This document shows, one piece after another, positions 8,820 through 56,186 of a DNA stretch of 64,000 bases. Position numbers and translations under genes: made by a program. This DNA comes from Limimaricola pyoseonensis (GTDB taxonomy: Bacteria > Pseudomonadota > Alphaproteobacteria > Rhodobacterales > Rhodobacteraceae). The notes under the pieces were generated by a model that did not search any database, had not been told where the DNA came from, and worked only from the letters and a program-made list of their open reading frames with translations. The stretch spans positions 246,443 to 310,442 of the forward strand of contig NZ_FNAT01000004.1 of the NCBI RefSeq assembly GCF_900102015.1. Reading direction: 5' to 3'. Each line of letters starts with the position of its first letter. Position 1 is the stretch's first letter.

Positions 8820-8850
8820 GGGCGTCGCACCCCTATTCGCGTGATGTGAG

Positions 8851-8889
8851 GGCCCCGAAGGGCCGGGGGCGCCGCGCGTAGGCGGCGCC
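8851..8889 (-). promoter_or_regulatory. Two hairpins in the mreB-mreC intercistronic gap
   Basis: The 73-bp gap contains two adjacent perfect stem-loops: GGCGCCGC / GCGGCGCC (8868-8875 with 8882-8889, 6-nt loop) starting 3 bp after the mreB stop codon, and GGCCC-CGAA-GGGCC (8851-8864). Neither has a U-tract on the minus strand. They could stabilise mreB mRNA or attenuate transcription into mreC, giving the large MreB excess over MreC seen in rod-shaped bacteria. Function is inference. Confidence 0.55.
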
Positions 8890-8892
8890 GTC

Positions 8893-10018
<1,126 letters not shown>

Positions 10019-10107
10019 GGGCGCGCGGGCCGCCGGTCAGCGCATTTTCGCCGTGTTTTCGTGGCCCGCGGAGGTTGCGTCACCGCCGCCCCCGCGGGCG
10101 GGCGGGC

Positions 10108-11679: not shown

Positions 11680-11735
11680 GGGGTGGTCCTTCGTTGTCCT
11701 TTGGTCCGGGTGCTTGCTCCGGCGCGGTCGCGTGT

Positions 11736-11771
11736 CCTCTGAGCGCTCGCGCCGAATGGCACGCTCAGAGG
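11736..11771 (-). promoter_or_regulatory. leuA attenuator stem-loop
   Basis: Perfect 10-bp inverted repeat: CCTCTGAGCG in the mRNA (11762-11771) and CGCTCAGAGG (11736-11745), with a 16-nt loop. The first arm overlaps the last Leu codon and the stop codon of the leader ORF, so a translating ribosome would mask it. There is no U-tract after the stem, so it may act through Rho, RNA processing, or as the antiterminator partner of another fold. Confidence 0.75.
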
Positions 11772-11845
11772 CGCGTAAGGAGAAGAAGGGTCCGAAGCGC
11801 GGCTCGGGCCGCGGCGGACGATGCGGGCATGGTCATCCGGCTCAT
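11765..11845 (-). CDS. leuA leader peptide
   Basis: ATG 11845 to TGA 11765 encodes 26 residues ending A-A-L-R-T-L-L-L-L-T-R-L: six Leu codons, five of them in the last seven residues (CTT CTT CTC CTT, then CTC). CTT is expected to be scarce in so GC-rich a genome, so charged tRNA-Leu shortage should stall the ribosome here. It lies 85 bp upstream of leuA on the same strand with a hairpin over its stop. In-frame ATGs at codons 4 and 6 are alternative starts; the -10 placement suggests a leaderless mRNA beginning at or next to codon 1. Confidence 0.8.
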   Translation of the reverse strand: MSRMTMPASSAAARAALRTLLLLTRL

Positions 11846-11852
11846 GGGCGGG

Positions 11853-11881
11853 ACTATAACCGGCCGCTCGCGGATGGAAAG
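11853..11881 (-). promoter_or_regulatory. Candidate leuA leader promoter
   Basis: On the minus strand TATAGT (11853-11858) is a good -10 hexamer. Position 11846, the base before the leader ATG, is the predicted transcription start. A weak -35 (CTTTCC or TTTCCA) is 16-17 bp upstream. If correct, the leader ORF is translated from an mRNA with almost no 5' UTR. Confidence 0.5.
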
Positions 11882-12053
11882 CCCGGATCGGCGGGAATTT
11901 TCCGCGGCCCCGCCGCCCGTCTCCGCCAGCCCCCTCCGGGCTCCGCCGGACTTCGGGCCGGACACCGGACCGGGGCGCGGCATCGTGCCGCCGCCGGCGC
12001 GGTTTGACCGCCTTCGGGCCGCCTCTACCTCGCAGCGCATGGCAGATGATAGC

Positions 12054-12752
12054 ATGAGAGCGCTTGTCACGGGCGGCGCGAAGGGGATCGGGCGCGGGAT
12101 CGTGAAGCGGCTCGCGCAGGAAGGCTGGGACGTCGTCGCGATGGATCGCGACGCGGACGGCCTGTCGGGGCTGCCGCAGGGCGCGCGCGGCCTCACGGGC
12201 GACGTCTCCGACGAGGCCTCGGTGCGCCGCGCCGTGGCGGAGACCGGCTGGGACGGGCTCGACCTTCTGGTCAACAATGCCGGCCTCGCCGCGCCGTGGG
12301 TCGGGCCGGTCGAGGATCTGGCGCTCGAGGACTGGAACGCCTTCATCGGCACCAACCTCACAGGCGCCTTCCTGATGGCCAAGCACTGCGTGCCACTGCT
12401 GCGGGCGCGGCGCGGCGCCATCGTCAACGTCACCTCGTCGCGGGCGGTCCAGTCCGAGCCCGACACCGAGCCCTACGCCGCCGCCAAGGGCGGGCTGACG
12501 GCGCTGACCCACGCGCTCGCCGTCTCGCTCGGCCCCGAGATCCGCGTCAACGCCATCGCGCCGGGCTGGATCGTCACCGAAGGCTGGGACGATCTGCGCG
12601 GGATCGACCACGCGCAGCACCCGGCGGGCCGCGCCGGCCGGCCCGAGGACGTGGCCGAGGCGGTGCTCTGGCTGGCTAAAGCCGGCTTCATGACCGGCGA
12701 GAGCATCCTGCTCGACGGCGGAATGACGAAGAAGATGATCTATGCCGAGTGA
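12054..12752 (+). CDS. SDR family oxidoreductase
   Basis: 232-residue classical short-chain dehydrogenase. TGGAKGIG near the N-terminus binds NAD(P); LLVNNAGLA, a Ser in NVTSSRAV and Y-A-A-A-K complete the catalytic set; the C-terminal LLDGGMTKK is the usual SDR ending. Substrate unknown. ATG 12054 places the first strand (R-A-L-V-T-G-G) at residue 2; an in-frame ATG at 12039 would add M-A-D-D-S. It overlaps the next SDR by 11 nt, making a three-gene operon with the photolyase. Confidence 0.85.
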   Translation: MRALVTGGAKGIGRGIVKRLAQEGWDVVAMDRDADGLSGLPQGARGLTGDVSDEASVRRAVAETGWDGLDLLVNNAGLAAPWVGPVEDLALEDWNAFIGTNLTGAFLMAKHCVPLLRARRGAIVNVTSSRAVQSEPDTEPYAAAKGGLTALTHALAVSLGPEIRVNAIAPGWIVTEGWDDLRGIDHAQHPAGRAGRPEDVAEAVLWLAKAGFMTGESILLDGGMTKKMIYAE

Positions 12753-13428
12753 GACCCCCGAAGCCGCCCCCGCCACTGCGCTCGTGATCGGCGCCTCCGG
12801 CGGCATCGGCGCGGCGCTCGCCGCCGCACTGGAAGACCGCGGCACCGCCGTCACCCGGCTGTCGCGCCGCCAAGACGGCCTCGACGTGACTGACCCGGAC
12901 GCGGTCGCGCGCGTGCTCGGCGCGGTGGAGGGGCCGTTCGAGCTGATCCTCGTCGCCGTCGGCATCCTCGCGCCCAAGGGGCAGGGGCCGGAAAAGGCGC
13001 TCGACGCGATCGACGCCGATCACATGAACCGCGTCTTCGCGGTCAACGCCACCGGCCCGGCGCTGATGCTGCGGCACCTGCCGCGGCTCCTGGCGGACGG
13101 CGGGCGCTGCGGCGTGCTCTCGGCGCGGGTCGGCTCGATCGGCGACAACGGCATGGGCGGCTGGTATTCCTACCGCGCCTCCAAGGCCGCCCTGAACCAG
13201 ATCGTGCACGGCGCGGCGCTGGAGCTGAAGCGGCAGGACAAGGGCGCGGTGCTGGTCGCCCTGCATCCCGGCACGGTCGAGACCGAGTTCACCGCGGCCT
13301 ATGCCGGGCGGCACAAGATGGTCGCGCCCGAAGAGGCGGCCCAGAACCTCCTGCAGGTCATGGACAATCTCGACCCGGCGCAGTCGGGCGGCTTCTACGA
13401 CTGGCGCGGGGAGGCGGTGCCGTGGTGA
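12742..13428 (+). CDS. SDR family NAD(P)-dependent oxidoreductase, C-factor type
   Basis: 228 residues. ALVIGASGGIG is the nucleotide-binding motif and Y-R-A-S-K the catalytic Tyr/Lys pair; the NNAG motif is replaced by V-A-V-G-I-L-A-P, as in CsgA/C-factor-like SDRs such as YwfD. The ending G-G-F-Y-D-W-R-G-E-A-V-P-W also matches that subgroup. It overlaps the upstream SDR by 11 nt and the photolyase start by several nt, so all three are coupled. Substrate unknown. Confidence 0.85.
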   Translation: MPSETPEAAPATALVIGASGGIGAALAAALEDRGTAVTRLSRRQDGLDVTDPDAVARVLGAVEGPFELILVAVGILAPKGQGPEKALDAIDADHMNRVFAVNATGPALMLRHLPRLLADGGRCGVLSARVGSIGDNGMGGWYSYRASKAALNQIVHGAALELKRQDKGAVLVALHPGTVETEFTAAYAGRHKMVAPEEAAQNLLQVMDNLDPAQSGGFYDWRGEAVPW

Positions 13429-43434: not shown

Positions 43435-43790
43435 AACGGCATGGCGGCGGGGCCGGGCGACGCATAGGTCGCCCGGGGCGCCGATCCCTTCCGCCGCCTG
43501 ACCCGGCCGGCGCAGCGCCGCTGTGCCGGCCGTCGGGCCTGTGGCGGTACGTAGCCGCCCCGGACCCTGTCGTCGCAGAGCACCACGACACCGCCTGCTG
43601 TCGGCCACGGGCCCACGGGCTGATCCGGCGCGCGGGCAAGAAGGGCCCGCGCGGCCCGCCGCGCGCCGCCGAAGCGTCAGCATGTCGATTTGGTGATATC
43701 AGCCGTCGAGCCTCTGGCCGCCGCTTGGCGCGGGAGTTGCTAGGTTCCGGGAGACCCGCGACAGGCGGGCGCAGATCCCGGAAACGAGCC
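43435..43790 (+). other. 356-bp intergenic region upstream of the catabolic operon
   Basis: No credible gene is seen. It holds a perfect 9-bp hairpin (CGCGCGGGC 43629-43637 with GCCCGCGCG 43645-43653) that may end the MYG1 transcript, and then an AT-richer segment with the putative operator at 43684-43702. I cannot point to a convincing -35/-10 pair; TAGGTT at 43741 is a poor -10 candidate. Confidence 0.5.
43684..43702 (+). promoter_or_regulatory. Putative operator, copy 1
   Basis: GTCGATTTGGTGATATCAG, containing the 8-bp palindrome TGATATCA, lies 88 bp before the amidohydrolase ATG. It matches the element at 55809-55827 at 15 of 19 positions in the same orientation relative to its operon. 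GCGTCA also precedes both copies by 4 or 5 bp. The obvious candidate regulator is the AraC/GlxA-type protein encoded at 48853. Binding is untested. Confidence 0.6.
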
Positions 43791-44690
43791 ATGATTGACG
43801 CGCATGTCCATTTCTACACGGCCCGGGACCTGGCCCGTGTCGCGGGGGGGCTGCCCTACGCGTTGCCGCAGCCGCACCCGCTCACCGGCTACCTCGACCG
43901 GTTGATCGATGCCGGCAGAAAGCCGCGACTGATCAACAACGTGCATCTCAGCATCCTGCCGGATTCGGAGAACGTCTTCGCCGGTTTCGATGAGCTGGCG
44001 GCGCTGCAGGCGCGCGACCCGGCGCGCTATGGCGGCATCGCCGGCATCGGCACGATCCTCGCCGATCCGGCCTACGCGACAGCGGCGCGGCTGGCGCATC
44101 CGCAGGTCAAGGGCATCCGCATGGTGCTGCATGACCGCGCGCCGGAAAGCGTCGGCGCCGGGGCCTATTCGGGCGCGGCGTGGCGGGAGCTTTATGCCCG
44201 GCTCCGGCCCGACCAGCACCTGCATGTCTACGCGCAGGACCCGGCCACCACGCTCGAGGTCATGGCGCAGCTGCCAGAGGAGGTGCCGCTGGTGATCGAC
44301 CATCTGGGCACCTGCCGGCCCGAGCGCGGCACCGACGACCCGGCCTTCCTCAAGCTGCTCGCGACCGCGAAGGCGCGGGGCAACACGTGGTTCAAGGGGC
44401 CGGGCTACCGGACCTCGACCGACGCGGCCGTCGTCGCGGCCTTTGCCGGGCGCATCATCGACACGCTCGGCCCCGGGCGGCTGGTGCTCGGGGCCAGCGA
44501 TGCCCCGCATGTCGGCGCCGACCATGACGGGCGGCCCTTCGCGGAGAGCTACACGCCCCTCGGGGCGCTCGATTTCGCGGCGGATGTCGCCGCGCGGGTG
44601 GCGCGCGCCACCGGAATTGCGGCCGAGACGCTCCTGAGCGGCGCGGCGGCGGAGATGTTCGACCCTTCAGCAACGAGAGCGTACCAATGA
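43791..44690 (+). CDS. Amidohydrolase-2 family metal-dependent hydrolase
   Basis: 299 residues. M-I-D-A-H-V-H-F provides the HxH metal ligands of strand 1; V-I-D-H-L-G-T-C supplies a later His, and V-L-G-A-S-D-A-P-H the strand-8 Asp. The TIM-barrel arrangement is that of PF04909, including 2-pyrone-4,6-dicarboxylate lactonase, 4-sulfomuconolactonase and related ring- or lactone-opening enzymes. No signal peptide. First gene of a four-gene operon; its TGA overlaps the next ATG. Substrate unknown. Confidence 0.85.
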   Translation: MIDAHVHFYTARDLARVAGGLPYALPQPHPLTGYLDRLIDAGRKPRLINNVHLSILPDSENVFAGFDELAALQARDPARYGGIAGIGTILADPAYATAARLAHPQVKGIRMVLHDRAPESVGAGAYSGAAWRELYARLRPDQHLHVYAQDPATTLEVMAQLPEEVPLVIDHLGTCRPERGTDDPAFLKLLATAKARGNTWFKGPGYRTSTDAAVVAAFAGRIIDTLGPGRLVLGASDAPHVGADHDGRPFAESYTPLGALDFAADVAARVARATGIAAETLLSGAAAEMFDPSATRAYQ

Positions 44691-45667
44691 CCGACGTGAC
44701 CCAGGCGGAGTTCACCTTCCCCGTTACCTATGCCGAGGGCACCCAGACCCTGCGCGGCACCATCTACCGGCCGGCCAGCTCGGTCGCGGGCGCCGAGGCG
44801 CTGCCGCCCGTCGTCTTCAACTCGGGCTTCACCGGCGGCGTGTCGATGTACGGCCAGCTGATGGGCCGCGCGCTGGCCGAGCGGGGCTATACCGTCACCA
44901 CCTACGACGTGACCGGCTTCTTCACCAACAAGGCGGTGCGCAACACCTATCGCGACGGCGACCTGACGGTCACCAATGTCAGCCTCGAGGACCAGACGAC
45001 CGAGCTTCTGGCGCTGATCGCCTGGACCCGCGCCGAATGCGGCCGCATGCCGGCCGTCGCGTCCTGGGCGATGGGCTCGGTCGCCAGCCTCGCGGCGATC
45101 ACCGAGCTGGCCCGGTCGGGCGGCGAGCAGGTCGCCTTCTACGTGCCGATGAACTACACCCGGCTTTCGGCGCTGCAGGGGCTGCGCGCCGATCCGGCCG
45201 CGGCCGACGCCGCGCTGGCGGCGCTGGCCGACGACGCCGCGATCCCGCCCTTCGACACCGGCACCGAGGCGACGCGGCTGGGCTACTACCCGCTCGACCC
45301 GGCGACGCAGGCCTATGTCGACGACCAGCTCGGCAGCTACACCGATGCCGGCGGCGCCGACCGCTGGCCGGGCTGCACCCATGTCAGTGCCAAGTCCTAC
45401 AAGAGCTACGTCGCCTTCGACCCCGAGGCGGGCCTCGCGGCGGCCGGGGCGGGCTTCCCGCCGGCGCTGATCATCCACGGCGCCGAGAACACGCTGCACA
45501 TGCCGGCGGAATCGGTGCGCCTGCACGAGGCCTATCCGGGCGAGAAGGGCGACGCGGCGCTGATCCTGGACGGCATGGCCCATGGCCAGACGATGCAGCC
45601 CGACAGCCCGGTCTTCCAGCAGATGATCGCCGCGATCGACGGCAAGATCCGCGCCCGCTGCGCCTGA
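44687..45667 (+). CDS. Alpha/beta-hydrolase-fold protein lacking the catalytic Ser
   Basis: 326 residues, fold of the dienelactone-hydrolase/X-Pro-peptidase-like group: P-V-V-F-N-S-G-F-T-G-G (oxyanion strand), Y-T-V-T-T-Y-D-V-T-G-F, and I-I-H-G-A-E-N before M-A-H-G-Q (His). The nucleophile elbow, normally G-x-S-x-G, reads S-W-A-M-G, with Ala where Ser should be. Either another residue acts, or the protein is a non-hydrolytic binder. ATG 44687 overlaps the amidohydrolase stop by four bases. Confidence 0.82.
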   Translation: MTDVTQAEFTFPVTYAEGTQTLRGTIYRPASSVAGAEALPPVVFNSGFTGGVSMYGQLMGRALAERGYTVTTYDVTGFFTNKAVRNTYRDGDLTVTNVSLEDQTTELLALIAWTRAECGRMPAVASWAMGSVASLAAITELARSGGEQVAFYVPMNYTRLSALQGLRADPAAADAALAALADDAAIPPFDTGTEATRLGYYPLDPATQAYVDDQLGSYTDAGGADRWPGCTHVSAKSYKSYVAFDPEAGLAAAGAGFPPALIIHGAENTLHMPAESVRLHEAYPGEKGDAALILDGMAHGQTMQPDSPVFQQMIAAIDGKIRARCA

Positions 45668-45740
45668 TCGCGACACCACCTGCGTGGTCCGGCCCCCCGC
45701 CTCGGCGGGCCGGGCCACGCCGCAAGACACGGGCAGGCCG

Positions 45741-48700
45741 ATGATCCCGAGACTGAGCACCGACGCGGCCGTGCTGCCGCTCTACGCCGAGTTCTGCGCC
45801 GAGCTGCGCGCGCGCGGCTTTTCGGGCGAGCTGTCTCAGACCGCGGCCGACCGGACGGTGCTGGCGACCGACAACTCGATCTACGAGATCCGGCCGCAGG
45901 CCATCGCCTTTCCGCGCGGCACCGACGACCTCGTGCGTATCGCGCGGCTGCTGGCCGAGCCGGCCTTCAGCGAGGTGCATGTCGCCGCGCGCGGCGGCGG
46001 CACCGGCACCAACGGCCAGTCGCTCGGCGCCGGTCTCGTGGTCGACCTGTCGCGCCACATGACCCGCATCCTCGAGATCGACGTGGCGGCGCGCCGGGTC
46101 CGGGTGCAGGCCGGCGTGGTCAAGGACCAGCTGAACGCGGCGCTGGCGCCGCACGGGCTGTTCTTCGCGCCGGAGCTGTCGACCTCGAACCGCGCCACCA
46201 TCGGCGGCATGATCTCCACCGATGCCTGCGGGCAGGGCTCGTGCCTCTACGGCAAGACCCGCGACCACGTGCTGGGGCTGACCACAGTGCTGGCCGACGG
46301 CGCGGTGCTGCACTCGGCGCCCCTCGAGGCGGAGGCGCTCGAGGCGGCCAAGGGCGCGCCGGGATCGGCGGGGCGGCTGCACCGCGAGATCGACGCGCTG
46401 CAGCGCGAGACCGCCGGTCTCGTGGCCGAGCGGTTCCCGAAGCTGAACCGCTGCCTGACCGGCTACGACCTCGCGCATCTGCGCGACGGGCAGGGGCGGT
46501 TCGACCTGAACGCCGTGCTCTGCGGCTCTGAAGGTACGCTCGGCTTCATCGCCGAGGCGACGCTGAACCTGATGCCGCTGCCGGGCCATGCCGCGCTGGT
46601 GAACCTGCGCTACGACAGCTTCGACGCGGCGCTGCGCGACGCGCGGCGGCTGATGGCGCTCGGGCCCGCCTCGATCGAGACGATCGACGAGAAGGTGCTG
46701 GGGCTCGCGCGCGAGGACATCGTCTGGGCCGAGATCGCCGAGCATTTCCCCGATGACGGCCACGGCCCCTTCGCGGGCGTCAACATCGTCGAGTTCGTCG
46801 GGCAGAGCCGGGCCGAGATCGACGCCGCGCTCGCGCGGTTTTCGCGCGATCTCGCTCCGGCGCCGGGGCGGCGCGGCCATACCGTGGCGCGCGAGCCCGA
46901 GGCCATCGCCCGGATCTGGAACATGCGCAAGAAGGCCGTCGGGCTCCTGGGCGCGACGCCGGGCGAGAAGCGGCCCATCGCCTTCGTCGAGGACACGGCG
47001 GTGCCGCCAGAGGCGCTCGCAGACTACATCGCCGAGTTCCGCGCCATCCTCGACCGGCGCGGGCTCGATTACGGGATGTTCGGCCATGTCGATGCCGGCG
47101 TGCTGCATGTGCGCCCGGCGCTCGACATGAAGGCCCCCGGCGCCGAGGCGCTGATCCGCGACATCACCGAGGAGGTGGCGGCGCTGACGCAGCGCCATGG
47201 CGGGCTCTTGTGGGGCGAGCACGGCAAGGGTGTGCGCTCGGAGTTTTCGCCGCAGGTCTTCGGGCCGCTCTACCCGGCGATCCGCCGGGTGAAGGCGGCC
47301 TTCGACCCGCGCAACCAGTTCAACCCCGGCAAGATCGCCGCGCCCGAGGGCGCCGCGCTTTTGACCGTGGACGGGGTCGCGACCAAGGGGCAGGGCGACC
47401 GCCGCATTCCGGAGACGACCCGCGCCTACGCGGGCAACGCGCTGCATTGCAACGGCAATGGCAGCTGCTTCGACTGGGATCCCGACGAGGCGATGTGCCC
47501 GTCGTGGAAGGCCACGCGCGAGCGCCGCCATTCGCCGAAGGGCCGGGCGCAGCTGATGCGCGACTGGCTGCGCCGCCTGTCCGAGCAGGGCATCGACCCG
47601 CGGGCCGAGGCCGCGCGGCTGCGCGCGGGCGGTGCGCTGCGGCGCTTTCCGGCGCGGCTGCTGGCGACGCTGACCCGCCGCCGCGAGGACGCCTCGCACG
47701 CGCTGCACGAGGCGATGTCGGGCTGCCTCGCCTGCAAGTCCTGCACCGGCAAATGCCCGGTGAAGGTGGACGTGCCGGGCTTTCGCGCGCGGTTTCTCGA
47801 GCTCTACCACGGCCGCTACCTGCGCCCGCCGCGCCACCACCTCGTCGGCCGGCTCGAGACGCTGCTGCCGCTGATGGCGCGGATGCCGCGGCTGGCCAAC
47901 CTCGCCGCCGCCGCGCCGCTGACCCGGCTGGTGGGGCTGGTCGCGACGCCGCGCCTGTCGGGCGTCGATCTCGGCCGCGAGCTGTCGCGCCGCGGCGTCC
48001 GCACCGCCACGCCCGAGGCGCTGGAGCGGATTCCGGCGCAGTCGCGCGGCGCGCATGTGGTGATCGTGCCCGACGCCTTCACCATGTTCTACGACACCGC
48101 CGTGCTGCTCGACGCGCTCGACCTGCTGCTGGGGCTGGGGGTGCAGCCCTGGATCGCGCCCTATCTGCCGAACGGCAAGCCCCTGCACGTGCATGGCTTC
48201 CTGGGCGCCTTCGAGAAGGTGGCCCGGCGCGGCGCCCGCGTGCTCGGCGCGCTGGAAAAAACCGGCGTGGCGCTGGTCGGGCTCGACCCGTCGATGACGC
48301 TCACCTACCGCTCCGAGTACCGCGCGGCGCTGCCAGAGGGCGCGGCGCCCGAGGTGCAGCTCTTGCAGGACTGGCTGGCCCGCCGGCTCGACGGCCGGCC
48401 GCCGCGCGACGTGGCCGGTGCGCGGCAGACCTATTACCTGCTGCCGCACTGCACCGAGCGGGCGATCGGCCCGGAGGGGATCGCCGCGTGGCGGCGGCTC
48501 TTCGCGCAGGCCGGGCTCGAGCTCGAGGTGCTGCGCGCCGGCTGCTGCGGCATGGCGGGCACCTTCGGTCACGAGACCGAGCACCGGGAGATGTCGGAGC
48601 GGATCTACGCGATGAGCTGGGCCGGGCATGTCGCGGCGCCGGACCGGGCCGGGCGCCTGCTGGCCGACGGCTATTCCTGCCGCGCGCAGGCCCGGCTGAT

Positions 48701-48770
48701 TGATGATGCGCCGCTGCGCCACCCGCTGCAGGTGCTCAAGTCGGTGTTGGCGCCGCCGCCGGGAATGTGA
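45741..48770 (+). CDS. FAD-binding and [Fe-S] D-2-hydroxyacid dehydrogenase, YdiJ type
   Basis: 1009 residues, a fusion of a GlcD-like FAD domain and a GlpC-like Fe-S domain. The FAD part (about 45-450) contains A-A-R-G-G-G-T-G-T-N-G-Q-S-L-G-A-G. The Fe-S part has L-H-C-N-G-N-G-S-C-F-D-W-D, C-L-A-C-K-S-C-T-G-K-C-P (CxxCxxCxxxCP) and a final C-C-G-M-A-G-T-F-G-H-E motif. E. coli YdiJ of the same size oxidises D-2-hydroxyglutarate. In this operon it probably oxidises a D-2-hydroxy acid made from the imported compound, passing electrons to quinone or ETF. Confidence 0.9.
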   Translation: MIPRLSTDAAVLPLYAEFCAELRARGFSGELSQTAADRTVLATDNSIYEIRPQAIAFPRGTDDLVRIARLLAEPAFSEVHVAARGGGTGTNGQSLGAGLVVDLSRHMTRILEIDVAARRVRVQAGVVKDQLNAALAPHGLFFAPELSTSNRATIGGMISTDACGQGSCLYGKTRDHVLGLTTVLADGAVLHSAPLEAEALEAAKGAPGSAGRLHREIDALQRETAGLVAERFPKLNRCLTGYDLAHLRDGQGRFDLNAVLCGSEGTLGFIAEATLNLMPLPGHAALVNLRYDSFDAALRDARRLMALGPASIETIDEKVLGLAREDIVWAEIAEHFPDDGHGPFAGVNIVEFVGQSRAEIDAALARFSRDLAPAPGRRGHTVAREPEAIARIWNMRKKAVGLLGATPGEKRPIAFVEDTAVPPEALADYIAEFRAILDRRGLDYGMFGHVDAGVLHVRPALDMKAPGAEALIRDITEEVAALTQRHGGLLWGEHGKGVRSEFSPQVFGPLYPAIRRVKAAFDPRNQFNPGKIAAPEGAALLTVDGVATKGQGDRRIPETTRAYAGNALHCNGNGSCFDWDPDEAMCPSWKATRERRHSPKGRAQLMRDWLRRLSEQGIDPRAEAARLRAGGALRRFPARLLATLTRRREDASHALHEAMSGCLACKSCTGKCPVKVDVPGFRARFLELYHGRYLRPPRHHLVGRLETLLPLMARMPRLANLAAAAPLTRLVGLVATPRLSGVDLGRELSRRGVRTATPEALERIPAQSRGAHVVIVPDAFTMFYDTAVLLDALDLLLGLGVQPWIAPYLPNGKPLHVHGFLGAFEKVARRGARVLGALEKTGVALVGLDPSMTLTYRSEYRAALPEGAAPEVQLLQDWLARRLDGRPPRDVAGARQTYYLLPHCTERAIGPEGIAAWRRLFAQAGLELEVLRAGCCGMAGTFGHETEHREMSERIYAMSWAGHVAAPDRAGRLLADGYSCRAQARLIDDAPLRHPLQVLKSVLAPPPGM

Positions 48771-48852
48771 TCAATCTGGAACCGGCCGGACCCACCCGGC
48801 GCGGACGCGCGCCTCGGGGCGTTCCGGCCGGGGGATTGCAACGGGCTTGTGC

Positions 48853-49821
48853 ATGCCGGGATCACGCGTGTCATCGACGGCGGCGCCGACGCGGATCGGC
48901 TTTCTGGTCTTTCCCGAGTTCTCGATGATGGCGCTCGCCTCGGCGAGCGAGCCGCTGCGGGCGGCCAATCGGCTGCGCGGCGAGGCCTGCTACGACTGGA
49001 CGCTGCTGTCCTCGTCGGGCGGGCCGGTCAGCTCCAGCAGCGGCTTCATGCTCGACACCACCGCCGTGGCGCAGGCGCCGGCGCTCGACCGGCTCTTCGT
49101 GGTGGCCTCGCTCAACATCGCCGGGATGCGCGACGCCGAGGTGGTGCGCTATCTCAAGCGGCTGGCGGTGTCGGGCGTGACGCTGGGCGCGCTCAGCAAT
49201 GGCAGCTTCATGCTGGCGCGCGCCGGCGTGCTTTCGGGCCATCGCTGCACGCTGCACTGGGAAAGCCTGCGCGAGTTCTCCGAGGAGTTCCCCACGATCC
49301 AGGTCTGCCGCGAGATCTACGTACGCGATCGCAACCGCTGGACCTGCGCGGGCGGCACGGCGGCGATGGACCTGATGCTCGAGCAGGTGTCGGAGGATTG
49401 CGACGGCCAGCTCGCCGCCGACATCGCCGAGCAGTTCCTGCATGGCCGGATCCGGCAGCCGCAGGAGACGCAGCGCATGCAGATCCAGTGGCGCTACGGC
49501 ATCGCCGACAAGCGGGTGAACGCGGCGATCCTGCTGATGGAGGAGCATCTCGAGACGCCGCTCGAGATCCAGGAGATCGCCGCCCGCTGCCACCTGTCGC
49601 AGCGCCACATGGAGCGGCTCTGGCACCAGCATTTCGACATGGCGCCGCAGCGCTTCTACGTCTCGGTGCGGCTGAAGGAGGCGCAGCGGCTTCTGAAGGA
49701 AAGCACCGAGTCGCTGGCCTCGATCGCGATGCGCTGCGGCTTCGCCTCGCCCTCGCATCTGGGCAGCAGCTACCGCCGCGCCTTCGGGCGCAGCCCCGGC
49801 GAGGAGCGGCGCCTGAAGTGA
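48853..49821 (+). CDS. GlxA-family AraC-type transcriptional regulator (GATase1-like N-domain)
   Basis: 322 residues. N-terminal DJ-1/PfpI-like domain (about 14-190: I-G-F-L-V-F-P-E-F-S-M-M-A-L-A-S, V-A-S-L-N-I-A, L-S-N-G-S-F-M-L-A-R-A-G), then two AraC HTH units (about 225-318: E-I-Q-E-I-A-A-R-C-H-L-S-Q-R-H-M and S-I-A-M-R-C-G-F-A-S-P-S-H-L). This is the layout of GbdR, CdhR and ArgR, which sense glycine betaine/dimethylglycine, carnitine and arginine. The Cys of the DJ-1 site is replaced by Asn. Probable activator of both converging operons. Confidence 0.9.
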   Translation: MPGSRVSSTAAPTRIGFLVFPEFSMMALASASEPLRAANRLRGEACYDWTLLSSSGGPVSSSSGFMLDTTAVAQAPALDRLFVVASLNIAGMRDAEVVRYLKRLAVSGVTLGALSNGSFMLARAGVLSGHRCTLHWESLREFSEEFPTIQVCREIYVRDRNRWTCAGGTAAMDLMLEQVSEDCDGQLAADIAEQFLHGRIRQPQETQRMQIQWRYGIADKRVNAAILLMEEHLETPLEIQEIAARCHLSQRHMERLWHQHFDMAPQRFYVSVRLKEAQRLLKESTESLASIAMRCGFASPSHLGSSYRRAFGRSPGEERRLK

Positions 49822-49828
49822 GGCGGGG

Positions 49829-51175
49829 CTAGGGGCCGGGGGAGACCGGCGACAGGATCAGCCCGAACAGCGCCGCCATGTCGCGATCGGGCCCGAGCGC
49901 GTCGATCTCGGCCTCGATGGCGTCGGCCCGGTCGCGGCCCAGCACCGGGTCGGCATAGGCGTGGAATTTGGCGCGGACCTCGTCCATCGGCGCGGGGGCC
50001 TCGGGGTCGCCGCTGGCCTCGGTCGGGCCCGAGCGCAGGCGGCGGCCGTCCTTCAGGACGATCGTCACCTCGGCGAAGCGGCGGGCGGGGAAGGCGGCGT
50101 TGAAGGCCTCGCTCTCGGTGAAGACGATCCGGTCCGCCATGCGGTTGATGGCGGCGTCGTCCAGCGCCTCGGGCGCCACCTCCTGCGGGCCGACGCGGCC
50201 GCGCACCAGCATGGCGGCGACGGGGTAGGCGGTGGAGTACTGCGCCTCCTCCGTGGTCTTCGGATGGCGCACCGCGAGCCGGATCGCCTGGTGGAAGGTG
50301 CCGATCTCGATGCTCTCGATCGCGTCGGGCGCGAGGGCGTGCCGCTCGCGCAGCGTCCGCGTCGCCTGCACCGAGGGCTGGGCCCAGCGGCAGACCGGGT
50401 AGGGCTTGTAGTACTGCTCGAACAGGCACCAGCGCTGGCCGAGATCGGCCCAGAGCGGCGCGACCTCCGCGCCCGTGACCAAGAGCGCCGGCGCGCCGGT
50501 GAAGCCGTCGGCGGCGAGATAGGCGGCCGAAAGGCCGGCCATGGCGCCCCAGCCCGAGCCGTCCTTGACCATGGTGGGGTGGTCGATGCAGCGCATCATC
50601 TGGCTGCGCGGCCCGTGATACTCGGCGATGCCCAGAGCCTCGTGGGTGCGCGCGGCGTCGAGCCCGAGCCCGCGCGCCCCGAGCGCCGCGGCCGCGACCG
50701 CGACCCAGGCCCCGGAGGTGTGGTAGTCGCAGGCCGTCCGGTGCAGCGCGATGCCGGCGCGGGTGCCGATCTCGTAGCCGAGCACCAGCGCCGTCAGGAA
50801 CTCCGCCCCGTCGGGCGCGCCGCAAGGCGCCGCGTCGCTCACCGCGAGCAGCGCGGGCAGCACGCCGCAGCCGACATGGCCCTTGGTCAGCTTGTGGCCG
50901 TCATGCGCGTCGAGCGCGTCGATGGTCATGCCTCCGGCCAGCGCCGCCCCGGCCGGGCTGACGCCGCGCCCGTCGAACAGCATCCGCGCCGCGGCGCCGC
51001 CGGCGCCGAACTGCGCGGCGGCATGGGCCCGGACGATCCGCGACAGCGCGGTGCCGGTGGCCGCCGCGGCGACGCCCGCGAGGTCGAGCAGCCAGCGGCG
51101 CGCGAACTCGCGGACCTCGGGCGGCAGCTCGTCCCAGTGCAGGTCGTGGATGAAGTCGGTGACGGGTCGAGCCAT
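49829..51175 (-). CDS. MmgE/PrpD family protein
   Basis: 448 residues. The N-terminal helical domain with R-R-W-L-L-D-L-A-G-V-A-A-A-A-T-G, the G-M-T-I-D-A-L-D-A-H-D-G-H core, the active-site-like segment K-D-G-S-G-W-G-A-M-A-G, and Y-Y-K-P-Y-P-V-C-R-W place it in MmgE/PrpD, which includes 2-methylcitrate dehydratase, cis-aconitate decarboxylase and iminodisuccinate epimerase. The Asp/His pair in D-A-H-D-G-H-K is present. Reaction here unknown; a dehydratase or epimerase on a C4-C7 dicarboxylate is likely. Last gene of the minus operon. Confidence 0.85.
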   Translation of the reverse strand: MARPVTDFIHDLHWDELPPEVREFARRWLLDLAGVAAAATGTALSRIVRAHAAAQFGAGGAAARMLFDGRGVSPAGAALAGGMTIDALDAHDGHKLTKGHVGCGVLPALLAVSDAAPCGAPDGAEFLTALVLGYEIGTRAGIALHRTACDYHTSGAWVAVAAAALGARGLGLDAARTHEALGIAEYHGPRSQMMRCIDHPTMVKDGSGWGAMAGLSAAYLAADGFTGAPALLVTGAEVAPLWADLGQRWCLFEQYYKPYPVCRWAQPSVQATRTLRERHALAPDAIESIEIGTFHQAIRLAVRHPKTTEEAQYSTAYPVAAMLVRGRVGPQEVAPEALDDAAINRMADRIVFTESEAFNAAFPARRFAEVTIVLKDGRRLRSGPTEASGDPEAPAPMDEVRAKFHAYADPVLGRDRADAIEAEIDALGPDRDMAALFGLILSPVSPGP

Positions 51176-51237
51176 CGGGTCGGGCCTTCTCTTGGGCAGG
51201 CTGTTGCGGGGTCGGGGCGGGGCCGGGGGAAAAGGGG

Positions 51238-52116
51238 TCAGGGATCGGTGCGGACGATGTCGGGGACGCCGATCTTCTCGAACAGGCGGGTGGTCTCGCG
51301 CAGCACCAGCGCCATGTTGCTGTCGCGCACCGTGGGCAGCATGTGCCGGGCGCGGCGCACCTCGTCGAAGTCGAGCGTCGCGGTGATCAGCTCCTCGCCG
51401 GTGCCGGCGACCGCCAGCTCGCGGCCGAACGGATCGAGGATGCGCGAGCCGCCCCAGAAGGTCAGGTCGCGCTCGGTGCCGGTGCGGTTCACCATGATCG
51501 TCGGCGCGGCGTACATCATCGAGTAGAAGCGCATGGTCAGCGCCCAGCCGCCGGGGTTGTCGAAGTCGATGCCGACCGCCTCGACGCCCGAGCTGACCGG
51601 GCCGATCATCAGCGTCGCGCCGTGCAGGAAGGCGAGATGGGTGAGGGCGGGGTTCCACAGGTCGGCGCAGATCAGCAGCCCGGCGCACCAGTCGTCGTCG
51701 AGGTTGTGGGTCTCGACGAAGCGCCCGGTGGCGTAGTGCTTGCCTTCCTCGAGCTTGCCGTAATTGGGCAGGTTGACCTTGCGGTGCATGTGCACGAGCC
51801 GGCCGCCGCGCAGCATCGCGGCGGTGTTGTAGAACTGCGCCGCCGCGCCTTCCTCGATGAAGCCGACCGTCACCGCCATCTCGCCGGCCGCCTCGGCCAG
51901 TTGCAGAAGTCGCGGGTCGCTGCGCTTCATCGCCGCGGTCAGCAGCTTTTCGGGGCCGTAATGGCCGGTGAGCGACAGCTCGGGCATGACCAGAAGGTCG
52001 AGCCCGGCGGCGCGGCCGCGGGCGATCCAGTCGAGATGCCGGTCGATGTTGGCGTCGACATCGCCGATCTCGCTGGCGAACTGGGCGGCGCCGACCTTGA
52101 GCTTGCGATGGGACAT
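51238..52116 (-). CDS. Nitrilase-superfamily carbon-nitrogen hydrolase
   Basis: 292 residues. The Glu-Lys-Cys triad is visible: L-L-V-M-P-E-L-S-L-T (Glu45), M-H-R-K-V-N-L-P-N-Y-G (Lys) and G-L-L-I-C-A-D-L-W-N-P (Cys). N-carbamoyl-amino-acid hydrolases, omega-amidases and aliphatic amidases share this layout. It should cleave an amide, N-carbamoyl or nitrile bond in the cytosol. It lies between the transporter binding-protein gene and the PrpD-like gene in one operon, so its substrate is probably the imported compound or an early product. Confidence 0.9.
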   Translation of the reverse strand: MSHRKLKVGAAQFASEIGDVDANIDRHLDWIARGRAAGLDLLVMPELSLTGHYGPEKLLTAAMKRSDPRLLQLAEAAGEMAVTVGFIEEGAAAQFYNTAAMLRGGRLVHMHRKVNLPNYGKLEEGKHYATGRFVETHNLDDDWCAGLLICADLWNPALTHLAFLHGATLMIGPVSSGVEAVGIDFDNPGGWALTMRFYSMMYAAPTIMVNRTGTERDLTFWGGSRILDPFGRELAVAGTGEELITATLDFDEVRRARHMLPTVRDSNMALVLRETTRLFEKIGVPDIVRTDP

Positions 52117-52137
52117 GGATCACCTCGTGGATTGGGT

Positions 52138-52161
52138 GGCGGGGCGGCGCACCGCCCCGCC
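52138..52161 (-). promoter_or_regulatory. Intercistronic hairpin after the binding-protein gene
   Basis: Perfect 10-bp stem GGCGGGGCGG / CCGCCCCGCC around a CGCA tetraloop, 9 bp after the binding-protein stop and 21 bp before the nitrilase-like ATG. No U-tract follows on the minus strand. Like the malE-malF hairpin it may protect the upstream mRNA so that the binding protein is made in excess. Confidence 0.6.
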
Positions 52162-52170
52162 GGGTCGGGC

Positions 52171-53055
52171 CTAGATGAGGCCGCTTTCCTTCAGGAAGTC
52201 GGCCGCGACGTTCTCGATCGAGACCTGCTCGACATCGACCCGCGCGTTGAGCTGCGCCATCACCGCGTCGTCGAGCTTGGCGGCGACCGCGTTCATCAGC
52301 TCGCCGATCTCGGGATGGGCGGCGAGGATCTCGTCGCGCACCACCGGGGCCAGGGCGTAGGCGGGGAAGTAGGCCTGGTCGTCCTGCAGCACCACGAAGT
52401 CGAAGGCCGGGATGCGGCCGTCGGTGGCGAAGACCAGGCCGACATCGACCTGCGCGTCGCGCAGCGCCTGGAACACCAGGCCCGAGTCCATCCGCTTGAC
52501 GTTGGCGCGGCCGAACTCGAAGGCATAGGCCGCCTCGAGCGGCTTCAGCCCGTCGGGCCGGGCGTAGAACTCGGCGTTCGAGCCGAAGGTGATGGTCTCG
52601 CCCGCGTTCACCTTGGCGGCGAGGTCGGACAGGGTGGCGATGCCGCGCGCCTGCGCGTCCTCGGCCCGCATCGCGAGACCGTAGGTGTTGTTGGCCTGCG
52701 AGGCGTCGAGCCAGACGATGCCCTTCTCGGCGTCGAGTTCCTTGACCCGCTCGTAGGTGGCGGCGGCGTCGAGGCGCTCCTCGATCTTGTTGTAGGTGAT
52801 GAGCGAGGTGCCGGTGTATTCCCAGTAGACGTCGACCTGGCCGCTCTCCATGGCCTGGCGCACCACCGCCGAGCCCATGCCGGCGCGGTTGTCGACCTCG
52901 AAGCCGTTGGCCTCGAGCAGCTGCTCGGTGATCGAGGCCATCAGCTGCTGTTCGGTGAAGTTCTTGCCGCCGACGACGATCTCGTCGGCCTGGGCGGTGG
53001 CGGCCGCCGCGATCAGCGCGAGGCTGGCGAGGGTGCGCTTGACGGGGTGGAACAT
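52171..53055 (-). CDS. Betaine-type ABC transporter substrate-binding protein (OsmF/ProX-like)
   Basis: 294 residues. Signal peptide cleaved after A-Q-A (about residue 22). Mature protein starts E-I-V-V-G-G-K-N-F-T-E-Q-Q, the OpuAC/OsmF family signature, with G-Q-V-D-V-Y-W-E-Y-T-G-T-S and D-V-G-L-V-F-A-T-D. Periplasmic receptor of the importer. Family members bind glycine betaine, choline or related quaternary amines, but ligand choice cannot be read from this sequence. Encoded after both permeases and the ATPase. Confidence 0.92.
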   Translation of the reverse strand: MFHPVKRTLASLALIAAAATAQADEIVVGGKNFTEQQLMASITEQLLEANGFEVDNRAGMGSAVVRQAMESGQVDVYWEYTGTSLITYNKIEERLDAAATYERVKELDAEKGIVWLDASQANNTYGLAMRAEDAQARGIATLSDLAAKVNAGETITFGSNAEFYARPDGLKPLEAAYAFEFGRANVKRMDSGLVFQALRDAQVDVGLVFATDGRIPAFDFVVLQDDQAYFPAYALAPVVRDEILAAHPEIGELMNAVAAKLDDAVMAQLNARVDVEQVSIENVAADFLKESGLI

Positions 53056-53102
53056 TGGGACTCCTCCTGTTGATCTGGCTGTTGGTCTTGTCAGGGCGGC
53101 GC

Positions 53103-53849
53103 TCAGCGCAGCGGGTTCACGCCCTTGGGAACGAGGGTGAGCTGGGCCTGCGCCATCGCGAAATCGACGAGCACGGCGAGCATGGCGGTGGGGACGGCGC
53201 CGGCCAGCAGCATGCCGGTGTCCATCAGGTCGATGCCGGTGAAGATCAGCTCGCCCAAGCCGCCGCCGCCGATCAGGAAGGCGAGCGGCGTTGTGCCGAC
53301 ATTGATGGCGAGCGCGGTGCGCACGCCCGAGAAGATGACGTAGAGCGCGTTGGGCAGCTCGACCCGCCACAGGATCTGGCGCGGCGTCATGCCCATGCCG
53401 GTGGCCGCCTCCTTGAGATGGGCCGGCACGGCGAGCAGGCCGGTATAGGTGTTGCGCACGATCGGCAGCAGCGAGGCGACGAACAGCCCGAAGAAGGCGG
53501 GCGCGAAGCCGATGCCCAGAAGCGTCATCGACAGGGCGATGACCGCGAGCGTCGGGATCGTGGTGCCGATGTTGAAGACCTGCATCACCGTCTCGGCATG
53601 GCGCGCCATGCCGGGGCGCGACAGCCAGACCCCGATCGGGATGCCGGCGAGGATCGCCGCGCCGCCAGAGGCCGCCACCAGAACCACATGCTGCCGCGTC
53701 AGGTAGAGGATGTCCTCCCAGTAGGGGCTGATCTGCTCGTCGAGGCCGGTCCAAAGGACCAGCGCCACGACCGCGGCCAGCGCCAACAGGCGCCACGCGA
53801 CCTGCGCCCCGAGGCCCGAGGCCGTGGCCATCGCCACCGCGCGGGTCAT
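53103..53849 (-). CDS. Betaine-type ABC transporter permease, second subunit
   Basis: 248 residues with about six helices. E-A-A-T-G-M-G-M-T-P-R-Q-I-L-W-R-V-E-L-P-N-A is the EAA loop that docks on the ATPase, and G-G-G-G-L-G-E-L-I-F the following helix. OpuB/YehY-like. ATG 53849 overlaps the ATPase stop (ATGA). It pairs with the other permease (55061-55705) to form a heterodimer. Confidence 0.92.
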   Translation of the reverse strand: MTRAVAMATASGLGAQVAWRLLALAAVVALVLWTGLDEQISPYWEDILYLTRQHVVLVAASGGAAILAGIPIGVWLSRPGMARHAETVMQVFNIGTTIPTLAVIALSMTLLGIGFAPAFFGLFVASLLPIVRNTYTGLLAVPAHLKEAATGMGMTPRQILWRVELPNALYVIFSGVRTALAINVGTTPLAFLIGGGGLGELIFTGIDLMDTGMLLAGAVPTAMLAVLVDFAMAQAQLTLVPKGVNPLR

Positions 53850-54970
53850 TGGGCGGCCACGGCGGGGGCCGCCTCCGACAGGGCCGCGGTCACGGCGCGC
53901 TGCGTGACGATCCCGGCGAAGCGGCCTTCCGCGTCGGTGCAGGCCAGCCACCTCATGTCATGCGTGAACATCTCGGAGACGACGGCGCGCAGGTCGCATT
54001 GCGCGGGCATCGTCACCGGCATCGGTTGCGCCAGCCCCGACAGCGTGCCGCGCGCGCCGGCCAGCGCCTCGGCCGGCACGTAGCCCACGGGGCGCCGCGC
54101 GGCGTCGACCACCACCACCACCGGCGCGCCCGCGGCCAGCGCCAGGCGCGCGGCCTCCTGCGGGGCGGTCTCGGCCGGAAGCGCCGGGGCGTCCTGCGCG
54201 ACCTGCCGCGCATCGATCAGCCGCAGCCGCTTCAGCGTGCGGTCGGCGCCGACGAAATTGGCGACGAAGTCGTTGGCGGGGCGGGCGAGGATCCGGTCCG
54301 GCGTGTCGTACTGCTCGATCCGGCCGCCGCGGAAGATGGCGATCTTGTCGGCCATCTTGACCGCCTCGTCGATGTCGTGGCTGACGAACATGATGGTCTT
54401 CTTCAGCTCGGCCTGCATCTTCAGGAACTCGTTCTGGATGATCTCCCGGTTGATCGGGTCGATCGCGCCGAACGGCTCGTCCATCAGCATCACCGGCGGG
54501 TCGGCGGCGAGCGCGCGGATCACGCCGATCCGCTGCTGCTGGCCGCCCGAAAGCTCCTTGGGATAGCGGCGCAGGAACTGGTGCGGGTCGAGCCCGACGA
54601 GGTCGATCAGCTCGGCGGCGCGGGCCTTGGCGCGCCCGGCGTCCCAGCCCAGCATGCGCGGCACCACGCAGATGTTCTCCTCGACCGTCATGTTGGGAAA
54701 CAGGCCGATCTGCTGGATCACGTAGCCGATCTGCCGGCGCAGCGCGATGTCGTCGAGCCCGGAGGTGTCCTCGCCGTTGATCAGGATGCGGCCGCTGGTC
54801 GGGCGGACCAGCCGGTTGACCATCTTCAGCGTCGTGGTCTTGCCGCAGCCCGAGGGCCCGAGCAGCACGCAGATCTCGCCGCTGGGGACCGTCATGTTGA
54901 TCCGGTCGGCGGCCACCACGAGCCGGTTCGCGGCGCCGAAGGTCTTGGTGAGGTCTTCAAGCTGTATCAT
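53846..54970 (-). CDS. Betaine-type ABC transporter ATP-binding protein with CBS domains
   Basis: 374 residues. Walker A L-L-G-P-S-G-C-G-K-T-T-T, Q-loop, signature L-S-G-G-Q-Q-Q-R-I and Walker B M-L-M-D-E-P-F-G-A-I-D in the first 230 residues; the C-terminal third (about 255-365, V-V-V-V-D-A-A-R-R-P-V-G-Y-V and R-W-L-A-C-T-D-A-E-G-R-F-A-G-I-V) is a tandem CBS pair, which in OpuA-type importers senses ionic strength or nucleotides. ATG 54970. Confidence 0.95.
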   Translation of the reverse strand: MIQLEDLTKTFGAANRLVVAADRINMTVPSGEICVLLGPSGCGKTTTLKMVNRLVRPTSGRILINGEDTSGLDDIALRRQIGYVIQQIGLFPNMTVEENICVVPRMLGWDAGRAKARAAELIDLVGLDPHQFLRRYPKELSGGQQQRIGVIRALAADPPVMLMDEPFGAIDPINREIIQNEFLKMQAELKKTIMFVSHDIDEAVKMADKIAIFRGGRIEQYDTPDRILARPANDFVANFVGADRTLKRLRLIDARQVAQDAPALPAETAPQEAARLALAAGAPVVVVVDAARRPVGYVPAEALAGARGTLSGLAQPMPVTMPAQCDLRAVVSEMFTHDMRWLACTDAEGRFAGIVTQRAVTAALSEAAPAVAAQ

Positions 54971-55060
54971 CGTGGAGGTTCCCCCTGGATTGCGGTGCGG
55001 CGGCGCGCGGGCGCGGTCGGTGAGTGGGGCGGCCGGGCGCGGCGCGCCCGGGCCGGCGGA

Positions 55061-55705
55061 TCAGAGCCCGGCGGGTGTCAGCAGTTTCTGGACCCGGTAG
55101 AGCGCCCGGTCGGCGACGATCGCCAGCAGCGACACGGCGAGCGCGCCGATGATCAGCTGGCGCGGATCGGTCTGGCTGATGCCGCGCGAGATCAGCACGC
55201 CGAGGCCACCGGCGCCGATATAGGCGGCGATGGCGGCGACGCCGATGTTCATCACCACCGCGGTGCGCACGCCGGCCATGATCACCGGCACGGCGATCGG
55301 CAGCTCGACCCGCCACATGCGCTGCAGCGGCGTCATGCCCATGCCGCGCGCCGCCTCGCGCAGCGCCGGGTCGACATTGGTGATGGCGGTGTAGGTGTTG
55401 CGCACGATCGGCAGCTGCGAATAGAGCAGGATCGCGATCACCGCCGGCAGCCAGCCGATGCCGTGGCCGATGGTCGACAGGATCGGGATCATCAGGCCGA
55501 ACAGCGCGATCGAGGGTACCGTGACGATGATCGAGGCGGCGTAGAGCACGACGTCGGCGATGCGCCGGTTCTGGGTGATCGCGATGCCCAGCGGCACGCC
55601 CGTCAGGATCGCGAGCCCGACGGCGACACCCACGATCGTGATGTGTTCGAGCGCCATGCCGGCAATCGCGTCCCTGTTGCCGACCGCGAACCAGATCAGC
55701 TCCAT
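55061..55705 (-). CDS. Betaine-type ABC transporter permease, first subunit
   Basis: 214 residues, about five helices. E-A-A-R-G-M-G-M-T-P-L-Q-R-M-W-R-V-E-L-P-I is the EAA loop; the C-terminal G-A-G-G-L-G-V-L-I-S-R-G matches the partner permease. Shorter than its partner by 34 residues at the N-terminus. ATG 55705 (M-E-L-I-W-F-A-V-G-N) has GGGGGGAG upstream. First gene of the minus operon: permease, ATPase, permease, binding protein, nitrilase-like, PrpD-like. Confidence 0.92.
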   Translation of the reverse strand: MELIWFAVGNRDAIAGMALEHITIVGVAVGLAILTGVPLGIAITQNRRIADVVLYAASIIVTVPSIALFGLMIPILSTIGHGIGWLPAVIAILLYSQLPIVRNTYTAITNVDPALREAARGMGMTPLQRMWRVELPIAVPVIMAGVRTAVVMNIGVAAIAAYIGAGGLGVLISRGISQTDPRQLIIGALAVSLLAIVADRALYRVQKLLTPAGL

Positions 55706-56109
55706 CCCGCTCCCCCCTGTTTTGCGTGATGCCGCCCGCATCCCCTTTGCGACGGCATGGCGGCAATCTACAGGAGGCGGGGGTCGCGGAGCATCAAAGG
55801 AACGCCACCCGATATCATGAAACCGACCAGATTGACGCTGCGGCGGGCGGGGCCGGAGCGGCGGCGCCGGGCCTGCCGCGGGCCGGCCCCGAGGGGCCGC
55901 CGCGTGGCCCCCGGGCGGATTTTTCGCGCGCGGCGCGCGGTTTTCGCCCGATCGCCACTTCGAACTTCGCGCGTTATCGCCTACAACCCCGGTCGGGGCC
56001 CGGCAGAGGCCGCGTGAAGCTTCGGGCAAGACCTTGATTTCGAAGGCCGGTTCCCGCAGCGTCGCGCCGGTTCGAGTCGGCCCTGCGACCTGCCCGTCAC
56101 GGGCCGGAC
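55706..56109. other. 404-bp region between the ABC operon and tRNA-Arg
   Basis: No credible coding sequence. The half next to the operon holds a weak minus-strand promoter (TTGATG 55792-55797, TGTAGA 55767-55772, spacing 19 bp) and the putative operator at 55809-55827. The rest is GC-rich with the tRNA promoter presumably near 56060-56105, where I see no clear hexamers. Confidence 0.45.
55809..55827 (-). promoter_or_regulatory. Putative operator, copy 2
   Basis: On the minus strand GTCGGTTTCATGATATCGG, matching 15 of 19 bases of the element at 43684-43702. It lies 103 bp before the first permease ATG and about 11 bp upstream of a weak -35 (TTGATG), a position suited to an activator. GCGTCA precedes it as in copy 1. 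Confidence 0.6.
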
Positions 56110-56186
56110 GGTCCCATAGCTCAACTGGATAGAGCAGCCGACTTCTAATCGGCAGGTTGGGGGTTCGAGTCCTCCTGGGATCGCCA
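56110..56186 (+). tRNA. tRNA-Arg (TCT anticodon)
   Basis: 77 nt with encoded CCA. Acceptor GGTCCCA/TGGGATC with a G2-U71 wobble, D-arm GCTC/GAGC, anticodon stem GCCGA/TCGGC with loop CTTCTAA (anticodon TCT, reading AGA), T-arm GGGGG-TTCGAGT-CCTCC, discriminator G. Complete. Confidence 0.96.

Follow-up and report, generated by a model that had tools for sequence, protein, structure and literature searches.

The stretch of DNA considered here (64,000 bp of contig NZ_FNAT01000004.1 of Limimaricola pyoseonensis, hereafter the window) contains two convergent operons, A on the plus strand and B on the minus strand, both preceded at their outer ends by a tandem operator of the same layout. The last gene of operon A (48853–49821) encodes a GATase-1-like AraC-family regulator (GATR) that very probably activates both operons, its own included, for the import and degradation of a betaine-like compound. 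A single regulon under this protein had been proposed in the initial annotation, and it is supported by the tandem layout of the sites, their recurrence together with regulators 49–68% identical to this one, a fixed distance to a −10-like hexamer, and the confinement of the full site to two places in the genome, all established by computation; binding, activation, the ligand, and the substrate are what we infer from them. Since the same switch stands before both operons, and a like switch before the same genes elsewhere, the two operons very probably form one system of nutrient use on demand.

Each operator consists of two half-sites arranged head to tail (Table 1). Operator A reads TGTCGATTTGGTGATA-N5-CGTCGA and operator B reads GGTCGGTTTCATGATA-N5-TGGCGT, with the second half-site placed exactly 21 bp after the first in both. 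The block common to the two, from GTCG through CCTYTG, comprises both half-sites of this 21-bp period and exceeds the pair of 19-mers reported initially at 43684–43702 (plus) and 55809–55827 (minus). The positions of these 19-mers, their identity at 15 of 19 bases, and their distances of 88 bp from the first ATG of operon A (43791) and 103 bp from that of operon B (55705) were all reproduced; the 19-mer covers most of the distal half-site and four spacer bases of the tandem operator, and the initial annotation had caught mainly the distal half-site. Both operators are direct repeats of a [TG]GTCG-like half-site with a 15-bp spacer, as known for GATR operators, the second half in B being TGGCG. 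Scored as a tandem of the published ArgR box, A reaches 12 of 18 and B reaches 11, values matched or beaten at 57 and 277, respectively, of the 127928 positions of the window; no intergenic position out of 14268 scores above 12, a value that A shares with five others. The distal boxes of A and B fit seven and six of the nine fixed positions of the ArgR box.

The hexamer GCGTCA does precede both elements, by 4 bp in A and 5 bp in B, and was rejected as a component of the site because its phase varies; GCGTC(A)-like strings also occur ahead of the sites of Shinella perm1 and Caballeronia, at differing distances (by eye). Nor is the string TGATATC the rare core that it was taken for, as it was found three times in the window (the palindrome at A counted twice) against 1.74 expected; it does, however, hold the second contact box of the half-site.

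In the 3.91-Mb genome of the organism, exact matches to the 19-mer number two and the next best differs at two bases, and a 25-mer spanning both half-sites has two matches without mismatch and four with three mismatches, against none in a backward control. These four were set aside, three of them looking coding in our reading (L127 was viewed only briefly). The full site, far from being frequent elsewhere in the genome, is confined to operators A and B. A loose direct-repeat pattern run on the window was uninformative (21 matches versus 2.6 in shuffles, mostly inside genes or the cluster), and nothing was concluded from a scan of 61 genomes allowing three mismatches, in which at least 59 had matches, mostly above the backward control.

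In both operons, a −10-like hexamer, TAGRTT, lies exactly 57 bp from GTCG. Across 13 promoters, a TANNNT hexamer is located 58 or 59 bp past the operator start in nine, namely those of both window operons, two of Shinella, one each of Mesorhizobium, Rhizobium NXC24, and Paraburkholderia, and two of Caballeronia; the count omits G051 and two near-identical Rhizobium copies, in which TATCTT is seen by eye at 59. Among the nine, no pair of offsets free of 58 and 59 accounts for more than two promoters, and the best offset pair never exceeded four of nine in 5000 shuffles; for the six less related promoters, all six have the hexamer at this offset, against at most three in shuffles. If a 17-bp spacer is assumed, the −35 element begins 35 bp past the operator start and is touched by the proximal box. 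A proximal half-site abutting the expected −35 element, at a fixed distance from the −10-like hexamer, is thus found in nine of the 13 promoters, a geometry that would suit activation from a position next to −35, as at araI1–I2. There, AraC binds two head-to-tail half-sites of 21-bp period, the proximal one touching −35; its ligand domain and site sequence are unrelated to those of the window system.

The tandem is not confined to this organism, and a like one stands before the same first genes in clusters on plasmids of other bacteria. Two of the outcomes that the initial annotation had named as refuting, frequency elsewhere in the genome and absence at orthologous clusters, were thus checked and did not occur. 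Regulators 60–80% identical to that of the window are encoded on five of 22 plasmid records (Mesorhizobium 131-2-5, three Rhizobium strains, and Shinella HZN7); identity amounts to 64–68% in Shinella, Mesorhizobium, and Rhizobium, and to 49–53% in Paraburkholderia and Caballeronia. Within the stretches read, the Shinella cluster combines the amidohydrolase, alpha/beta hydrolase, YdiJ, regulator, transporter, and carbon–nitrogen hydrolase, that of Mesorhizobium the amidohydrolase, alpha/beta hydrolase, YdiJ, regulator, and PrpD, and that of Rhizobium the amidohydrolase, alpha/beta hydrolase, and regulator. In Caballeronia and Paraburkholderia, the transporter and the carbon–nitrogen hydrolase occur with the regulator, accompanied in Caballeronia by PrpD. 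Four Paracoccus plasmids also carry the transporter and the carbon–nitrogen hydrolase (~78% identical), followed in three of them by PrpD, whose convergence with a GlxA-family gene repeats the arrangement of the window. In these plasmids (L148–L151), the upstream tandem has GCAA in place of GATA, and a regulator swap with a matching operator change is possible.

The plus strands of 16 upstream regions (260 bp each), among them the two of the window, were scored for the ArgR-box tandem. The best or joint-best tandem lies 89–128 bp before the start in ten of them (two each of the window, Shinella, and Caballeronia, three of Rhizobium, whose starts are tblastn estimates, and one of Paraburkholderia), at 113 in all four of Paracoccus, at 79 in G051, and at 47 in Mesorhizobium, where the annotated start is probably too early; tandems placed elsewhere tie with it in window A, window B, Shinella perm1, and Rhizobium CB3060. 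With a matrix made from A and B only, matches at the same places were equaled, per 1000 shuffles, by 0, 0, and 1 for Rhizobium, 1 and 19 for Shinella, 15 for Mesorhizobium, 3 for Paraburkholderia, and 14 for Caballeronia NK8. Shinella and Rhizobium NXC24 agree in every base of the 26-bp site, as against 107 of 266 aligned columns outside it. In the 20.9-kb Shinella locus, two positions exceed 15 bits, one before each operon, with a matrix that itself includes the Shinella and Mesorhizobium sites; a 21.9-bit match in Rhizobium was discarded, as it falls inside an open reading frame (ORF).

Some of these plasmid loci have features of their own. The annotated start of the Mesorhizobium amidohydrolase (L141, 4774) precedes both the predicted −10 (~4785) and the start of similarity (4840), and the true start is therefore probably near 4837. 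On the same plasmid, three GlxA-family regulators lie side by side (9950–13389), adjoining an MmgE/PrpD gene. In Shinella HZN7 (L140), the regulator is split between two reading frames (9971–10944) and the YdiJ-like gene (6786–9853), absent from the gene table, matches in two overlapping pieces; this cluster may be decaying.

The regulator itself has an N-terminal DJ-1/PfpI-like domain (Pfam, 1.9e-9) and a C-terminal AraC helix-turn-helix domain (HTH_18, 1e-20), the architecture of a GATR. Its best-scoring named model is GbdR, the choline/glycine betaine regulator, with which it shares a quaternary amine context; however, the score of 299.6 bits is under the curated cut-off of 480 for the GbdR equivalog (NF052371), and it is therefore not GbdR itself. 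The recognition helices of the window, Mesorhizobium, Rhizobium, and Shinella regulators are closely alike (by eye). Relatives are scarce: only one of 14 confirmed genome_contigs loci exceeds 45% identity, and the best match in each of seven genomes of the same genus is 34–36% identical. That closest locus, L069 (8123–10934), belongs to a Mesorhizobium metagenome-assembled genome; its regulator diverges near the C terminus and is followed by a transposase-like ORF (by eye).

In the consulted sections of PMC5806209, CdhR of Pseudomonas aeruginosa, a GATase-1-type AraC regulator that controls quaternary amine breakdown, is described as binding the caiX operator through direct-repeat GGTCGC half-sites with a 15-bp spacer and a 34-bp footprint, much like GbdR, SouR, and ArgR. 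The window system resembles it in regulator type, repeat, and spacer. Unlike CdhR, which those sections place divergent from its operon and term a class I activator, the window regulator is encoded at the end of an operon that it would activate, its site abuts the expected −35, and the half-site carries a second box, TGATA. The ArgR box of Pseudomonas, TGTCGCN6GNAA according to the part of PMC10963909 consulted, is likewise a tandem with boxes 5 bp apart and a weaker second repeat, its spacing being variable in P. alloputida; it differs from the sites described here, which belong to another regulator and other genes, in having GNAA rather than GNTA in the second contact box. As published in those parts, both the CdhR and ArgR layouts have a 21-bp period. 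Two further papers, PMC8151288 and PMC3900636, treat different regulators of the AraC family and were set aside. In 41 GATR-linked regions, ArgR-type tandems scoring at least 15 number four at period 21, versus none or one at 18 other periods. A box 14/16 like that of the window (expected 0.05) was found in L071, whose regulator is 44% identical, a post hoc result, as it was noticed before the test.

Activation of both operons by the 48853 regulator has to be weighed against three alternatives and a number of adverse observations. The sites could be genuine GATR sites under the main control of one of the three other full-length GATRs encoded in the genome (four in all), or be shared by several of them; GATR sites do overlap in Pseudomonas, where the consulted sections of PMC5806209 report one site common to CdhR and GbdR. 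We consider this unlikely, as the 48853 gene is itself part of the regulon, clusters with related regulators have a like tandem too, and no further exact copy of the operator occurs in the genome. Less probable still is a regulator that mainly represses, or that loops between operators 12 kb apart, rather than activating beside −35. The same sections state that CdhR without ligand represses its own basal expression, and looping has been proposed for it there; yet the fixed distance from the site to the −10-like hexamer and a proximal box abutting the expected −35 fit activation, and some related clusters have a single site in the stretch read.

The similarity of A and B, considered alone, is moderate evidence: the best ungapped match, weighted by base composition, has 23.2 bits, a score that 6 of 5000 shuffles attained. 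On the opposing side, it looks weak, since 13 of 1176 real pairs of window upstream regions reach that score (the A–B pair included, and many of the regions overlapping coding DNA in our reading), and since at least 15 of 19 identities were obtained in 865 of 2000 dinucleotide shuffles of two 250-bp GC-rich upstream regions, for which reason the raw identity was dropped as evidence. Chance similarity in GC-rich DNA, which these shuffles might favor, nevertheless has a negligible probability in view of the comparison with related clusters of two bacterial classes, in which the tandem recurs and the −10-like distance is fixed.

Further observations weigh against activation by this regulator at these sites. 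The four Paracoccus promoters show CTAT at the −10 place, without the final T and hence without TANNNT, and their regulators are only ~39% identical to that of the window. The A+B matrix is unconvincing in G051 (155 of 1000 shuffles), has its best match elsewhere in C. insecticola (4 of 1000) as well as in the Paracoccus regions Pden and PMA (92 and 2 of 1000), and is weak, at the tandem, in Palc and Pver (46 and 72 of 1000). L069, with the closest regulator in genome_contigs (69%), has other neighbors and lacks such a tandem. At a tandem score of at least 13, period 21 ties with 19, 23, and 25 in the 41 GATR-linked regions. Finally, the absence of a consensus sigma-70 promoter from 43500–56050 says little, as shuffles average 0.6.

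The operons end 7 bp apart (49821 and 49829), convergently and with the regulator gene at that junction, as first described. In operon A, the YdiJ-type protein has FAD domains and a weak Fe-S match. Operon B encodes an Opu/Osm-type osmoprotectant importer of the ATP-binding cassette (ABC) family, with an OpuAC binding protein, a ProV-type ATPase, and two permeases.

Table 1. Operators, putative −10 hexamers, and genes of the two operons (window coordinates)
Feature	Position	Strand	Basis or remark
Operator A, tandem operator	43683–43719	+	site comparison, published layout
Operator A, distal box TGTCGATTTGGTGATA	43683–43698	+	followed by 5 bp
Operator A, proximal box CGTCGAGCCTCTGGCC	43704–43719	+	
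Putative −10 hexamer TAGGTT	43741–43746	+	58 bp from operator A start
Operon A gene 1, Amidohydro_2 family amidohydrolase	43791–44690	+	Pfam 6.1e-14
Operon A gene 2, alpha/beta hydrolase	44687–45667	+	sub-cut-off Pfam match; relatives annotated so
Operon A gene 3, YdiJ-type D-2-hydroxyglutarate dehydrogenase	45684–48770	+	NCBIfam NF049975, 1435.8 bits (cut-off 1350)
Operon A gene 4, GATase-1-like (DJ-1/PfpI domain) AraC-family regulator, proposed activator	48853–49821	+	
Operon B last gene, MmgE/PrpD family protein	49829–51175	−	
Operon B, carbon–nitrogen hydrolase (nitrilase superfamily)	51238–52116	−	
Operon B, OpuAC/OsmF-type substrate-binding protein	52171–53055	−	start inferred from translation
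Operon B, ABC permease 2	53103–53849	−	
Operon B, ProV-type ABC ATPase	53846–54970	−	TIGR01186, 337 bits (cut-off 326.6)
Operon B gene 1, ABC permease 1	55061–55705	−	
Putative −10 hexamer TAGATT	55765–55770	−	58 bp from operator B start
Operator B, proximal box TGGCGTTCCTTTGATG	55807–55792	−	
Operator B, distal box GGTCGGTTTCATGATA	55828–55813	−	followed by 5 bp
Operator B, tandem operator	55792–55828	−	site comparison, published layout

A tRNA-Arg gene is located at 56110–56186, ~280 bp outside operator B. As it adjoins the cluster, and no close relative of the regulator is encoded in the seven genomes of the same genus, the cluster may have been inserted beside it. The amidohydrolase was found at an E value of 1e-40 in one of 385 genomes of the class, that of the organism itself. 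Of 18 PrpD loci fetched (17 genomes), only L109 and L111 gave a GATR match within the stretch retrieved; there, PrpD-family genes lie near GATR genes with MttB-like and FAD oxidase ORFs and, in L111, a dimethylglycine-dehydrogenase-like ORF (all by eye).

By analogy with other members of the family, a regulator dimer would bind the two head-to-tail half-sites, ~16 bp each; in each of them, one helix-turn-helix would contact [TG]G[TG]CG, and the second would contact the TGATA box ~10 bp further on. The second half-site would abut the expected −35, which is poor, and transcription may depend on the activator for these reasons. When the ligand is present, the regulator would turn on operon A, i.e., three catabolic enzymes and itself in a positive feedback loop, as well as operon B with its Opu/OsmF-type importer, carbon–nitrogen hydrolase, and PrpD-family enzyme, and both operons together would import and break down one compound. 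This compound is most likely betaine-like or another methylated nitrogen compound, as indicated by the type of importer, by the membership of the regulator in the GATR family, and by methylated-amine genes near related clusters. Among the latter are the MttB-like and FAD oxidase ORFs of L109 and L111 and the dimethylglycine-dehydrogenase-like ORF of L111 noted above, a ring-hydroxylating dioxygenase and FAD oxidoreductases in Paracoccus, and ectoine genes beside the cluster of Shinella. The hydrolases in the operons suggest an amide, ester, or lactam form, and it is perhaps an amide or ester.

No publication on this gene set was found, judged by titles and the beginnings of abstracts, with most subscription journals outside the coverage. 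We can speculate, tentatively, that the two operons exemplify a previously undescribed GATR regulon of soil- and plant-associated alpha- and betaproteobacteria, located on large plasmids and, in this genome, next to a tRNA gene, which would sense and degrade an unrecognized betaine conjugate of plant or osmolyte origin (an amide, ester, or lactam), and in which the second contact box (GATA, GACA, or GCAA) would shift with the regulator. The regulator, its two operators, and the promoter geometry recur in two bacterial classes, and a comparison of the related sites suggests the way in which GATR operators change along with their regulators. A single reporter, exposed to various betaines and amides, could show which substrate this uncharacterized importer and enzyme set handles.

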